Part shown: positions 21,310 through 33,700 of the stretch, one piece after another | How positions within the stretch are numbered: position 1 is the first letter of the stretch | Layout of the letters: each line of letters starts with the position of its first letter | Assembly: GCA_029260075.1 (NCBI GenBank) | Contig: JAJDDY010000087.1 | Location: 124,001-188,000, forward strand | Direction of reading: 5' to 3' | Length of the DNA: 64,000 nt | Source: Phycisphaerae bacterium | GTDB taxonomy: Bacteria; Planctomycetota; Phycisphaerae; UBA1845 | The notes under the pieces: model-generated | Told to the model about the DNA's origin: nothing | Databases searched by the model: none | The model's input: only the letters and a program-made list of their open reading frames with translations | Position numbers and translations under genes: made by a program

Positions 21310-21377
21310 CACGCCGTCAGCACGAAGGTGCGAGATAGGAATCACGCACCAGCCAAGCTTACACGGTGCGAGAAGAG

Positions 21378-21525
21378 GTGCTGTGCCGTCAATCCCTTCT
21401 CGGCACCTCGTGCTGTGCCGTGAATCCCTTCTCGGCACCTCATGAAGAGTCGTGCTGTGCCGTGAATCCCTTCTCGGCACCTCATGAAGAGTCGTGCTGC
21501 GCCGTGAATCCCTTCTCGGCACGTC
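21378..21525. repeat. 42-bp tandem repeat array
   Basis: Two full 42-base units (21410-21451 and 21452-21493) are identical or nearly so, flanked by two shortened 32-base units (21378-21409 and 21494-21525). Each unit contains GTGCCG and CGGCAC around a 12-base loop, so each can fold into a small hairpin. The array lies downstream of rnhA and downstream of the minus-strand gene at 21612, i.e. between convergent genes. No open frame spans it convincingly. Confidence 0.85.
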
Positions 21526-21611
21526 GTGAAACGATGCGAGAAGAGATGCACGTACCAGCCAAGAATCCCGCGCCGGAGAAGGCGCAGCAAGCACCACGAT
21601 TCCGCTCGCAG

Positions 21612-24167: not shown

Positions 24168-24509
24168 GCTGGCGGCGGGTTCGATCGCAGCGACGCCATC
24201 ACCCTGTCGAACCGCCCCGGCAATGCTGTCAGGAGGGCTCCAATCGCACGTCAGTACTGAGAAACCGGTCTGGTTTAGGATACGGCTCAAGTTTTTCAAT
24301 GCTAATATCCGAATAGGTTCAACTCGGAGATCGAACTGCGGGGAGGTGCTCAAGCAACGTCGTAATCGCTTGACCGCGGCTCCCGCAGCGGGTTGGCGAT
24401 GGAATGTGCACCCGGGTCTCTCGAGTCGACCGATCGAGGCCAAGCAGGAGGCGGCACCTCGACCCGGTATGATCCCTCGCGCCTCCTACGCTCAGTAGAG
24501 GCTTCTCAC

Positions 24510-26084
24510 GTGCGCACTATTACGATTGCCAACCAAAAGGGCGGCTGCGGCAAGACGACCATCGCCATTAATCTTTCGGCGTCGATCGCCAAGCAGGGTC
24601 GACGGACGTTGCTGATCGATTTGGACCCGCAAGGCCACTGTGCACTGGGGTTGGCCGTCCCTGAAGAGCAGATCGACTTGTCGATCCTCGACTGTCTGAT
24701 GCGACAGATCGATGGCGAACCGCTCGAACTTTCTCGAATCACGTGGCAGATCGCTCCCAACTTCGACCTGGTCCCCGCCCGGGCCAACCTCAACACCCTG
24801 GAACCCACGCTCGGCACACACGACGATGGCGACAAGCTCTTGAGCAAGCTGCTCGATGGTAACGCGAACAGATACGACTATTGCGTGATCGACTGCCCGC
24901 CCCACTTGGGGCTGCTGATGAAAAACGGTCTCCGTGCGGCGGACGAGGTCATCATCCCCGTCGACACGGGTTATTTTTCGCTTTACGGACTCACGCAACA
25001 ATTGGCCACCATTGAAGAACTGAGCGAGCGATACGGGTCGACTCCGATCATCCGGGTGCTGCCCAACCAATACGACGTCCGAACGAAGCTCGCCCGCGAG
25101 ATTCTTGCGGAGTTGCGCAAGCGATTCGGCCACGTGATGTTTGAAACGCTCGTCAATTTCAACACGAAGTTGAAGGAAGGCGCGAGCTACGGCCAACCCA
25201 TCACAGAATTCGCCCCGACCAGCATGGGCGCCCGCGACTTTGAAGCCCTCGCCCGCGAACTACTCACGCGCGAGCCGGTCAAGACGCCGACCCGTGATCT
25301 CATTCAACACGCCGAGCAACTCGCCGCCAACGCCGAACGCCTGCTGGCTACGACCGCAACGCTCGTCGGCAATAAGTCCCAAGCTGCGGCGCTACCGAGC
25401 GTCGCGGATGGCACGGTGACCGCGCCGACGCCGGCCTCATCTGTCCTACCGGTGATCATTGCGGCTGAGGACAAGCCCGCGGTTTCGGTTGAGCCGACGC
25501 GTGTAAGCGTTTCCAATAGAGATCGTTCGACGACGCCACGCCAGTCGCCGGTAACAACTGCTGCGCCGCTGTCTTCGACTGCACACGTAACGGTCAACCG
25601 CCACGACGAACAAGCCCCCGTGTCACAGGCAACGAGTCCACGCGCCGCGAATGCCGCGAATGCCCTTGACCCCACGGCAGAACTACCCGAGACACCGCTA
25701 ACGGGTATGAATCCGGTGTCGCCGATGCCGCGTCCGCCACTGGCCAACACACCGGCCGTTCCGCCGGCCACGCCGGAGGAGATCGACAAGAAAATCGAAG
25801 AGATTTACGGCGTCCGCCAGGATGGAGACACCGTAATATTCCGCAACCGGTCGACGGACGCGACTGAGGTTCAACTTGCCGGGGACTTCAACGACTGGAT
25901 GCCACATACGACGCCGCTGAGACGACTGGTCAACGGCGATTTCGAAGCACGCCTACGACTGCCCATGGGTCGATACCGTTACCGCCTCGTGATCGACGGG
26001 CGATGGTCCCACGATACTGAAAACCCGATGATGGAAACCAACGAGTACGGGGAGCTTAATTCGATTATCGAGGTGGCGAAGTAG
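24510..26084 (+). CDS. ParA-family ATPase fused to a glycogen-binding (CBM48/AMPK-beta-like) domain
   Basis: A 524-residue protein with three parts. Residues 1-260 are a ParA/MinD-type ATPase: deviant Walker A QKGGCGKTTIA (Lys10, Lys15), LLIDLDPQGH and YCVIDCPPHLG. Residues about 260-420 are a low-complexity Pro/Ala/Thr linker. Residues about 425-524 carry a carbohydrate-binding CBM48/AMPK-beta-like fold: VQLAGDFNDWMPHTTPL, then GRYRYRLVIDGRW and NEYGELNSII. The start is GTG at 24510 with AGAGG upstream; the longer frame runs into a repeat-rich zone. No parB partner follows. Its nearest functional neighbours are the chemosensory genes, and ParA-like proteins position chemoreceptor arrays in some bacteria, so a role in cell-pole or glycogen-granule positioning is possible but unproven. 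Confidence 0.85.
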   Translation: MRTITIANQKGGCGKTTIAINLSASIAKQGRRTLLIDLDPQGHCALGLAVPEEQIDLSILDCLMRQIDGEPLELSRITWQIAPNFDLVPARANLNTLEPTLGTHDDGDKLLSKLLDGNANRYDYCVIDCPPHLGLLMKNGLRAADEVIIPVDTGYFSLYGLTQQLATIEELSERYGSTPIIRVLPNQYDVRTKLAREILAELRKRFGHVMFETLVNFNTKLKEGASYGQPITEFAPTSMGARDFEALARELLTREPVKTPTRDLIQHAEQLAANAERLLATTATLVGNKSQAAALPSVADGTVTAPTPASSVLPVIIAAEDKPAVSVEPTRVSVSNRDRSTTPRQSPVTTAAPLSSTAHVTVNRHDEQAPVSQATSPRAANAANALDPTAELPETPLTGMNPVSPMPRPPLANTPAVPPATPEEIDKKIEEIYGVRQDGDTVIFRNRSTDATEVQLAGDFNDWMPHTTPLRRLVNGDFEARLRLPMGRYRYRLVIDGRWSHDTENPMMETNEYGELNSIIEVAK

Positions 26085-29544: not shown

Positions 29545-30735
29545 CTATTTCAGCGAGGAGTCGATCAGGCGCATCGCTGAGGGTGCCGGAAGGAGAAGAA
29601 ACATCCACTCCACCGTTTGGCCATCTACGACGAAATCCGTCTGCGTCAAGAATACATCGTCGCCGACCATCGCTTGCTCCGCGAGGACAGATCCGATCAC
29701 TGCGTCGGGCGCATCGTGAACAAATTGCGGCGCACCGGGAACGATCTCAATGTCGAGCCACGTCGACCAACTGTTCAAGAAAGCACTCCCGATGATGTTC
29801 GCACCCTCTTGCAGGGCTGATTCTTCCAACTCCCCCAACTTCGTTGTCGTTGGGACCGGTTGCTGCAAAATCAAATCAGAGAAGCGCAAGGCGTTGGGAT
29901 TGTTCATGACCAACAGTGCATGTCCGTGCAAGTGCGTTCCCAAGTCGAGGTGCCACGCGAGAATCTCGTCGTCGTCGCGAAAGTGGGCCCCGACGTCGTC
30001 AAGCGCCATACGTACAAAACCTTCTGTCGATATCTTGACGCCGCGCCGGAGCAACTTAGAAATAGCCCGGGAGGCGTCGAACGAACCGTTAATGGCGATC
30101 GTCTGTAACGCCTCGGCACGCACCGATTCCTGGTTGCATCGCGACTCCATTACCGCAAACGACGCGTGCGATGGCAGCAACATGAACCCCCACTCGAAGC
30201 GCTTGCCGTCGAGGAGGAATTCCGTCGACGCGACATAGATTTCATTACCAAAACCCGCAAGATCCATAAGCAACGGGTCGAGAATCGCGCACGCCATGTC
30301 AAAGGCAAAAGACGGAACCCGGGGTTCGATGTGTAAGTCGAGCCACTTCGACAAGCTGTTGGCGTAGGCGGTGCTGACAATATTGCCCGTCTCTTCGAGG
30401 CATGATTGTTCGAGTTCCCCAAGCTGTATCGTTGTTCCGGAGGGCGCTTGCATGATCAAGTCCACGAGCGCCGTCGCAGTCTCTTCGGGAAAGGCGAGTA
30501 ACATATGCCCGGTAACGTCGCCAGCCAACGGAAGATGCACGGCTGCGACCACCGTCTCCGCGTCGCCAAATGCCAGACCGGCGTCGGCGATCGGCACCGA
30601 ACGGAATCCGTTGCAAGTCAACCGAACGCCTCGATGAAGCCACTTGGATAGCGCTCGCGACGCGTTGTAGGCGCCATTGATCGCCACAGTGCGCAATGCT
30701 TCAGTCGGCGCCATTGTCGGAGTTTCGCAACTCAT
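29545..30735 (-). CDS. Tandem CheC/CheX-like phosphatase-family protein
   Basis: A 396-residue protein made of two homologous halves of about 200 residues, each starting TVAING or TIAING followed by a [YF][ND]ASRA[LI]SK motif. Each half carries the CheC phosphatase signature [DS]xxxExxNx22P exactly: Ser111, Glu115, Asn118 and a Pro 23 residues later; then Ser306, Glu310, Asn313 and a Pro 23 residues later. CheC proteins dephosphorylate CheY-P. The start ATG overlaps the cheA stop (ATGA), so translation is coupled. Each half also has a long insertion-like region (FGNEIYVASTEFLLDGKRFEW / VGDDVFLTQTDFVVDGQTVEW) absent from short CheX proteins. A duplication-fusion that joins two complete CheC modules is the likely origin. 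Confidence 0.85.
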   Translation of the reverse strand: MSCETPTMAPTEALRTVAINGAYNASRALSKWLHRGVRLTCNGFRSVPIADAGLAFGDAETVVAAVHLPLAGDVTGHMLLAFPEETATALVDLIMQAPSGTTIQLGELEQSCLEETGNIVSTAYANSLSKWLDLHIEPRVPSFAFDMACAILDPLLMDLAGFGNEIYVASTEFLLDGKRFEWGFMLLPSHASFAVMESRCNQESVRAEALQTIAINGSFDASRAISKLLRRGVKISTEGFVRMALDDVGAHFRDDDEILAWHLDLGTHLHGHALLVMNNPNALRFSDLILQQPVPTTTKLGELEESALQEGANIIGSAFLNSWSTWLDIEIVPGAPQFVHDAPDAVIGSVLAEQAMVGDDVFLTQTDFVVDGQTVEWMFLLLPAPSAMRLIDSSLK

Positions 30736-33700
30736 TGGGTAGCCCCCAAGGCGCTCGGCGCGGGTGTGGCGCACTGAGACGCAGATTCGGCGGCTTGGGT
30801 CGCCTTGGACATCACCGCCGCGACGTCCAAGATCAACGAAACGGTTCCGTCGCCTCGAATTGACGCGCCGGCGATACCGGCCACGTTCTGATAGTTTTCC
30901 GCGATCGACTTGATCACGACATCCTCCTGCCCCACCAGTTCATCGACCACGAGTCCGACCTGTTGGTCGTCCAATCCAATGATCATCAGCGTGAGCTCAT
31001 CGGTGGACCGCGATTCGGTCTGCAATCGCGGCGCCATGGTCTCGAAAACATCTTCAAACCAGGCTAACGGAACGACCCGATCGCGCACGCGCACAACTTG
31101 TCGGCGTTGAATACATTGCACGTCACTGCTTGGAACCGTTATGATTTCCGCTACTGATTCTAAAGGAATCGCGTAGATGCCTTGACCGATGCGCGCGACC
31201 ATGGACGTAAGCACGGCGAGTGTCAGTGGAAGCTTAATGACGATGTGCGTTCCTTCGCCTGGCGTCGAATCGATCTCAATGGTTCCGCTAAGCTTTTCGA
31301 TCTTGTTGATCACGATGTCCATGCCCATGCCACGTCCGGACACTTCCGTCACGGTCTGAGCGGTCGAGAACCCCGGCTTGAGGATGTACTGGATCAATTC
31401 GCGATCGCTCATCGCGTCGACTTGAGCCGGCGTCGCCAACTCTCGTTCGACGACCTTGGCCTTGACACGTTCGATATTTACGCCGGCGCCGTCGTCGATG
31501 ATCTCAATGCAAATACTGTTGCCGCGATGGCAGGACGACAGCGTCAAGATTCCCGTTGGGTCTTTCCCGGCGGCGCGTCTTTCTTCCGGCGATTCTATTC
31601 CGTGATCGACGCTATTGCGGACCATGTGCGTGAGGGGGTCGCCGAGTTCGTCGATCATGCGTTTGTCGAGTTCAGTGGACTCGCCGCGCAATATGAGCGT
31701 GACTTGCTTGCCGTTGCCCTTGGTGATGTCCCGCACGACTCGACGAAAACGCGTAAACAGTGGCCCCACAGGAACCATGCGCGTACCCATAATGCCCTTC
31801 TGGATGCTCTCAGAAACACGCGTCAATCCGTGGAGCGCCTCGTCGAAATCGGTCATCGACGCCCGAAGTTCGTGGACCTGGCGCACAAGCGACCGAATCG
31901 GTTCGAAGTTGATGTTGAGATGGGTCAGACAACTGGTCGCCTCAACCAACGCGCGTTGGCCACGCTTGTCGCTGTTGGCGCCGAGGAAGTCGAGCTTGTC
32001 CCCGAGTTGGGATAGCTGCACGCGGACATCATCGATCAGGTACGCAAGGCTCTTTCCGCTGAACAGTTCATGAAACTTGCCATGAACCTGGGCGAAACGC
32101 GAACGGTTGATGACCAGTTCGCCACCGAGATTCATGAGTTGATCAAGTCGTTCCTGGTCCACACGAATTGTGCTGGGGCTCTTAGCCGCGGCCCGTTCGC
32201 TATCACCTCCGCGGGCCGGAGGCGTGGGGGGCGCTGCGGTTGGCGTCGGGTTGCGTTCGGGCGGAGTCGGCGCAAGCGCCGGTTTCACCGAAACTGGCGG
32301 CGTCGAAGTGGCGTCCGCCGGTTGTGTGACTGCGGTGACGTCAGGTCGGCCCGCCTCCACTGGCGGTTGCGCTGAACCGTCTTGATCGTTCTCGCACGCG
32401 GCGGTCGAGGTACCGACGACATCCTGCGACGCGGCAACAACTTCCACGGACGCCACGGCGTACCGGTCAACGAGTTCTTCGATAGCGTCGGCGTGCGTGG
32501 CTGTCATTAGAACGATTTGAACTTCCGTAAGTTCCGTCTCCGGCGGCAGTGCGTCCAGGTCCGGGTTGCAAGACCGAATCGCACCCTCGTCGCTCAGACG
32601 GTTTTGAATCAGAAACGCCTGTATGAACGACTCTGCGTCGTTCGGCGTGAATGTGAACACGACGGAAAGCAGCGTACCATCGCCCCCGTCCGCCGCGCCG
32701 ACATCACTCGGCGGCGTCGATTCCGCCGCGACGTTCGTCACGGAATCATCGCCGACATCGTCGGCCTGCTGCGCTTCGGTCGCCCCGGCACGCGATTCCT
32801 TAATCCAGGGTTCAAACAGACCGACCAGTTCGTCGGGGGCCACATCCGAGCACTGCCCTTGCTCGAGGCTCTCGGTGACCGCACGCAATCGATCGACGAC
32901 GGTGAATACGGCGTTAACAAGTTGGTCGGCGAGCTCGATGCGTTTCCCGCGGAGGAGGTCGAACACCGTCTCCATCTCGTGCGTCAGTCGGTTCATACCG
33001 AAGAGGCCGACGGCACCCGAGGCACCCTTGATGTTGTGTGCACACCGAAACACGGTGTTGAGCAATTCCGTGTCGCCCGCAGAATCCTCCAGGCGAAGAA
33101 GACCTTGACCGAGTTCGTCAAGCGCTTCGTTGGTCGATTCCAAGAAGACGGCCAACATCTCCGGATCGGACAGTAACTCGTTCCCGATAGCCGCTGGGGC
33201 CTGCGCAGCTTTCGCATCGTCAGTGCCCACACCGCCTATGTCAGACGTAGCCGCATTCGGATCGTCGCCGTTCTGCGGTTTCGATACGTCAGAATCGGAC
33301 GCGGATTCGGCATCAGCAACTTCACGTTTAGCATCGGTCATGGTCTCAGCTACCTCTGGGGACGATGAGTTGAGAATAGTGTTTAGCTCCGCCAGCACAT
33401 CTTCTATTTCGACGGGCGGGCTGGACGAATCACTCAACTCTTCGATCAAACAGCGCAGGCGATCGAATACGCGAAACAATGTCTCAAAGCTGTCCGAAGA
33501 TAGCTGCCGCTCACGACGACGCACCTGGTCGAACAGCGTTTCCATGCAATGCGTTAGCTCTTTGATCTTGTCGAAACCGAACACCGCTGCGAGCCCTTTG
33601 AGACTATGGGCCGCGCGAAACATCTCCGTCATTAACAATTGGTCGGCCGGGTCTTCCAGAGTCAACGGACCGGACGCGGCGCGCGACTCAAATTCCATCA

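Follow-up and report, generated by a model that had tools for sequence, protein, structure and literature searches.

A Soj-type ParA ATPase tethered to an AMPK-beta-type CBM48 domain is retained across the Phycisphaerae and may be an orphan positioning ATPase

With ATP bound, ParA-type ATPases form dimers that attach to the nucleoid, from which they are freed by a partner connecting them with cargo, and the cargo specificity of ParA/MinD ATPases normally lies in such separate, hard-to-find partner proteins (PMC10241942). What, then, does a ParA ATPase do that carries a carbohydrate-binding domain on its own chain? The question is raised by one gene in a 64,000-nucleotide stretch of DNA from a Phycisphaerae bacterium (the whole of which we call the window), where a sequence-only reading had noticed a ParA ATPase, a Pro/Ala/Thr linker and a CBM48/AMPK-beta-like domain in a single polypeptide. 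Pfam, PDB and AlphaFold agree on this layout, and the features of the gene are as follows.

24510..26084, + strand: ParA-CBM48 fusion gene, an open frame of 524 codons (524 aa) with a GTG start
24510..25274, + strand: Soj-type ParA ATPase domain, residues 1-255 (Pfam AAA_31, PDB 8ray, model against Soj)
24537..24557, + strand: deviant Walker A motif KGGCGKT, residues 10-16, with signature Lys10 and catalytic Lys15 (sequence, conservation)
25080..25082, + strand: Arg191, aligned with the DNA-binding Arg189 of Soj (alignment)
25167..25169, + strand: Lys220, aligned with the DNA-binding Arg218 of Soj (alignment)
25290..25376, + strand: conserved helix past the ATPase core, residues 261-289, consensus AERLAADAERLLATT (alignment A1, model, conservation)
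25377..25769, + strand: variable Pro/Ala/Thr linker, residues 290-420, predicted to be disordered (pLDDT ~30; column conservation ~0.1)
25773..25808, + strand: short conserved helix ahead of the CBM, residues 422-433 (model; Tyr433 and Gly434 conserved)
25827..26081, + strand: AMPK-beta type CBM48 domain, residues 440-524 (Pfam AMPK1_CBM, PDB 1z0m, structure match)
25896..25898, + strand: Trp463, equivalent of AMPK beta-1 Trp100 (sugar contact; alignment with 1z0m)
25983..25985, + strand: Arg492, equivalent of AMPK beta-1 Lys126 (sugar contact; alignment with 1z0m)
26004..26006, + strand: Trp499, equivalent of AMPK beta-1 Trp133 (sugar contact; alignment with 1z0m)

The start was placed at the GTG at 24510, and a longer TTG start at 24393 was rejected, because the alignment of relatives begins at MRTITIANQKGG. 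The ATPase part was recovered by Pfam AAA_31 (3.1e-45, residues 2-174) and, in a sequence search of the PDB, by the ParA family protein 8ray (1.3e-44); its model has the fold of the ParA/MinD ATPase superfamily, matching Soj with Z 35.4 and an rmsd of 1.5 A over 250 residues, MinD with Z 27.8 and McdA with Z 28.6. The C-terminus scored above the curated cut-offs of both Pfam AMPK1_CBM (4.1e-13, residues 449-523; 49.8 bits, cut-off 26.8) and Pfam CBM_48 (1.9e-6; 28.6 bits, cut-off 22.4), and matched the glycogen-binding domain of AMPK beta-1 in the PDB (1z0m, 2.5e-12). In the AlphaFold model the ParA core is confident and is followed by the helix at residues 261-289, pLDDT falls to about 30 across linker residues 290-420, and a confident beta-sandwich begins at residue 440. 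The fold search with the full model reached the ParA part only; folded and searched separately, the CBM matched AMPK beta-1 (Z 12.8, rmsd 1.4 A, 80 residues, 38% identity), which bears out the C-terminal fold that had been proposed, as well as the CBM48s of branching enzymes and esterases (Z 13-14). The gene encodes one genuine polypeptide that joins a ParA ATPase to an AMPK-beta/CBM48 domain through a long disordered linker. A frameshift, an artefact of two genes or a chance join is ruled out, as alignment within the family and order showed the same single-frame architecture in another 27 genomes; in one relative (G025) the fusion is split across two frames, possibly through faulty assembly.

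Conservation, counted over 54 homologous fusions, is concentrated at the two ends of the protein. Lys10 and Lys15 of the ATPase are nearly invariant, and Arg191 and Lys220 are each kept in 47 of the 54, at positions that align with Arg189 and Arg218 of Soj, presumably its DNA-binding arginines by a numbering that agrees with our alignment. In the CBM, tryptophan stands at position 463 in all 54 fusions and at position 499 in 53, while position 492 is Arg in 51 and Lys in two; the counterparts in AMPK beta-1 are W100, W133 and K126, respectively, which we take to be its sugar-contact residues. Residues 290-420 hold almost no conserved column, so that both ends, but not the linker, appear to be under selection, and the linker itself looks like a tether. 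Since at least 51 of 54 fusions retain W463, R492 and W499 while the linker is unconserved, the sugar-binding face is probably under selection, and part of the Trp/Arg conservation could serve the maintenance of the fold. The deviant Walker A of the ParA/MinD family is KGGXXK[S/T] (PMC9178275), found here with its signature lysine as KGGCGKT at residues 10-16. Among the papers cited in PMC10241942 is one whose title ascribes DNA binding by Soj to conserved arginines, and with basic residues at the R189 and R218 positions the fusion is predicted to bind DNA in the manner of nucleoid-binding, Soj-type ParA proteins.

The architecture is conserved in relatives and widespread in the class. Of the 40 genomes that represent the family and order, about 32 have the fusion, a few copies being cut by a contig end or split; it is absent from all four genomes of family f4 and from one f5 genome, and the three further gaps are genomes less than 82% complete. 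A phylum-scale scan with a family-specific CBM profile was positive in about two thirds of the sampled class members outside the order, with matches in frames of 400-900 codons and sporadic carriers outside the class, the ParA part being confirmed in the approximately 20 loci fetched. Among the matches listed, ParA-CBM fusions also occur in loci filed as Sedimentisphaerales, Myxococcales and Omnitrophota; because these are metagenome bins, the Myxococcales and Omnitrophota assignments could be binning errors, and the Sedimentisphaerales fusion (L056) nests within the clade of the class in the tree, in keeping with the class being Phycisphaerae. Plain Soj proteins, taken from a collection scan with alignment A1 whose listed matches were mostly plain Soj picked up through the common ParA motif, served both as the outgroup of the tree and as a control for parB adjacency. 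The ParA tree places all 52 fusions together in a single clade, apart from plain Soj (support 0.999), and most simply the fusion would have arisen once. It is old and has been retained over many families of the class. No paper describing a ParA-CBM48 fusion was found in the open-access literature searched, in keeping with the earlier impression that the combination is not a known one.

The fusion might be the chromosomal ParA that partners the single ParB of the genome, with the CBM48 as an accessory. Chromosomal Soj proteins are indeed closest to it by fold and sequence: Soj/ParA of B. subtilis, H. pylori and T. thermophilus reach fold Z scores of 31-35 at 35-39% identity in the structural alignment, and share the deviant Walker A and the DNA-contact positions, whereas the fusion differs from them in its C-terminal linker and CBM48, in having no adjoining parB and in forming a separate clade. 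The earlier remark that there is no ParB partner stands for the neighbourhood, where the ParABS arrangement of parB next to parA is not found, but not for the genome, which has one ParB above cut-off on another contig (C4), with no ParA-family match on that contig; the ATPase of this ParB is thus unassigned, which speaks for the partnership. In one locus (L190) a parB lies about 4 kb from the fusion. However, this is the only one of some 56 fusion loci with a parB in the fetched stretch, whereas most plain Soj genes, among the matches listed, have parB directly downstream; in addition, the window genome has a second Soj-like ParA (G000 contig C15:374-1558, L203), with no parB beside it, and family f4 does without the fusion. 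We therefore regard a ParB partnership as improbable, and by genomic context the fusion is an orphan ParA, since it has no parB beside it, unlike most plain Soj loci. The C15 ParA reads HDSTTRLA at the Soj R189 region, where the arginine seems, from the sequence, to be shifted or lost.

Two further ATPases resemble the fusion in part. McdA is a ParA-like ATPase that positions a protein organelle, the carboxysome, through the adaptor McdB; it shares the fold (Z 28.6), but only 21-22% identity with the fusion, its adaptor is a separate protein, and its Walker A is SGGQGKT (PMC9178275) as against KGGCGKT in the fusion. BcsQ, of cellulose synthesis, is a ParA/MinD-family ATPase tied to a polysaccharide and also matches by fold (Z ~25). 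The fusion, however, scores 91 bits with the BcsQ model TIGR03371, under its cut-off of 157.85, BcsQ carries no CBM, and no bcs genes were recognised adjoining the fusion.

The sequence-only reading had suggested glycogen as a cargo, in that the CBM48 would hold glycogen granules and the ParA domain would space them over the nucleoid. The domain is of the right type, being like the glycogen-binding domain of AMPK beta (1.4 A rmsd, 38% identity) with the equivalents of Trp100, Lys126 and Trp133, and hence its sugar contacts, intact, and some relatives have GH57, GT35 or GH13 enzymes. Gene content, however, points the other way. Neither a glycogen synthase (GlgA, GT5) above cut-off nor a GT35 phosphorylase or a GH57 occurs in the window genome, which is 96.9% complete. 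Its sole GH13 match is a secreted, divergent protein of 650 residues whose N-terminus resembles a signal segment and whose alpha-amylase domain is fragmentary, so that recognised glycogen machinery is missing from this carrier. Six fusion carriers with genomes at least 90% complete likewise lack GT5, GT35, GH57 and any strong GH13 match; GlgA is above cut-off in just one of 61 other class genomes, most of them fusion carriers; and the fusion is missing from family f4 despite the GH57, GT35 and GH13 enzymes carried there. Fisher tests within the order, on machinery defined as GT5, GT35, GH57 and GH13, gave no positive association of the fusion with any tested alpha-glucan enzyme; with GH57 the association was weakly negative (p 0.046, with no correction for shared ancestry). 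Because of this gene content and the absent positive association, glycogen-granule positioning is unlikely as a general function, a GT4-based route to glycogen being a possible exception, and we consider the granule-spacing reading of the fusion very unlikely. The domain also differs from that of AMPK beta in its setting, being joined to a ParA ATPase and not placed in a kinase complex or a glycoside hydrolase, and, in contrast to AMPK-beta/CBM48 systems, carriers of the fusion are mostly without a classical glycogen synthase.

Two observations on alpha-glucan genes were made along the way. Standalone CBM48 frames of about 109 aa occur in two fusion-less genomes of the class (G276:C1:236520-236771 and G288:C1:1041286-1041537), each about 3 kb from a GlgA-like gene, which may be what a glycogen-linked CBM48 looks like. 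GH57 genes adjoin GT4-like genes in many relatives (G030:C1:1788934-1790357, G034, G020 and others), which might give this GlgA-less group another route to alpha-glucans.

A second suggestion of the sequence-only reading was a link to the chemosensory cluster next door. Orphan ParA-like ATPases that place chemoreceptor arrays are known, PpfA in Rhodobacter and ParC in Vibrio (PMC9178275), and in the window cheB starts ~0.8-1.1 kb downstream of the fusion, followed by cheY, cheD, cheC/X, cheA and cheR. Yet the cheA operon lies on the strand opposite to the fusion, and che genes are close to it in only two of ~56 neighbourhoods, the window and L190, with different arrangement and distances. The conserved location in chemotaxis loci that marks PpfA and ParC is thus not seen, the fusion further differing from both in its extra CBM48, and across 31 loci (the order and the window) the sole gene family common to all is the fusion itself. 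That it is a ParC/PpfA-like ATPase placing the adjacent chemotaxis cluster is, on this distribution, scarcely credible. Within the cluster, the chemotaxis protein encoded between cheD and cheA (29548-30774, - strand) has CheC-like and weak CheX-like matches and two apparently repeated halves. At 21366-21530 the window holds tandem repeats (translated CCAVNPFSAPHEES) in a frame that is probably non-coding, likely an intergenic repeat.

Comparison of neighbourhoods across relatives, which the earlier reading had proposed, yielded no che or glycogen context and one conserved element. In 19 neighbourhoods, all of them outside the window's family, the fusion is followed directly on its own strand by a conserved gene; they belong to families f2, f3, f9, f10, f11, f12, f15, f16 and f18 and to a locus filed as Myxococcales. 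The product of this gene is a fast-evolving protein of 280-870 residues, usually with a LADLFLT/LG-like motif close to the start, which has no P-loop and no match in Pfam or PDB searches. In profile comparisons, the C-terminal half of the FlhG/MinD ATPase fold was matched by profile A4 with a probability of 94% (E 1.5e-7) and by profile A3 with 80% (E 1.5e-5), and A3 and A4 were joined to each other at 95% (E 3e-8). That the product is a degenerate MinD-like protein and a candidate partner of the fusion is moderately supported. In the window's family, profiles A3 and A6 gave FlhG-type matches only and no such gene beside the fusion or elsewhere, so that the candidate partner either is not required everywhere or has diverged beyond recognition; for the gene downstream of the fusion in L201, a locus from another class, no link to the partner profile was found.

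With such a neighbor, the CBM48 might be a recruited protein-binding or regulatory domain, and the ParA and the downstream MinD/FlhG-like protein might act together on a cargo that is not a sugar. Adjacency of the P-loop-less gene in nine families and on the Myxococcales-filed contig is consistent with this, as is the lack of glycogen machinery in many fusion carriers, but conservation of the sugar-contact Trp/Arg/Trp set exceeds that of most of the protein, which would be needless on a purely protein-binding face. We treat this as a tentative reading, and a rather unlikely one.

The reading that we prefer, with a probability of about 0.4, is that the fusion is an orphan Soj-type ParA positioning or spacing ATPase, whose tethered CBM48 recognises a carbohydrate cargo other than glycogen or a soluble oligosaccharide. 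A positioning ATPase is suggested by the Soj fold, the complete ATPase motifs and the retention of both basic DNA-contact positions, by loci without parB, by class-wide retention and by the conserved downstream gene in 19 neighbourhoods; against it, the partner gene is not recognised in the window's family, where no conserved genomic context names a cargo. In such a system, ATP-bound dimers of the fusion would bind nucleoid DNA non-specifically and would be freed from it by ATP hydrolysis, while the CBM48, on a disordered tether of ~130 residues, would act in cis as the head that recognises cargo or ligand. Classical glycogen aside, its target would be a carbohydrate-bearing cargo or a soluble oligosaccharide that it senses, and, where present, the degenerate MinD/FlhG-like protein would be an adaptor or activator in trans. 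The ligand may be other than an alpha-glucan: titles of matched structure entries indicate that xylan-active esterases, too, carry CBM48 domains. An ATPase with a probable built-in ligand-binding head, present class-wide, means that its cargo could be fished directly via the CBM48, and the conserved degenerate MinD-like neighbor offers a concrete candidate partner.

Planctomycetes have been reported to lack FtsZ, and Phycisphaerales divide by binary fission (PMC5147048). We found FtsZ above cut-off in 0 of 40 genomes of the order, with partial matches in two incomplete genomes; the partial match in G017 (63% complete) is strong and may be a contaminant. A conserved positioning ATPase in an order without FtsZ bears on how such cells are organised. 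It is conceivable that the ParA-CBM48 protein and its degenerate MinD-like neighbor form a two-protein system, old in the class, in which the CBM48, on binding a sugar polymer or an oligosaccharide, steers where a nucleoid ATPase acts, perhaps for placement of the division site or of an envelope assembly that bears glycans, a speculation that we consider distinctly improbable.

Some other genes were seen near the fusion. A link to type IV pilus-type ATPase genes, present in three loci, was put down to chance by a rough estimate. An HldE/RfaE-type gene recurs near the fusion in families f6, f8 and f12 (L044, L048, L049, L050, L187, L188, L190), and in the window genome the C15 ParA, too, has such a gene at a distance of about 4 kb. 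In family f12, a DnaJ/CbpA-like gene and clpB stand near the fusion and its candidate partner (L187, L190, L191, L192), and clpB is found near the fusion in L201 as well.
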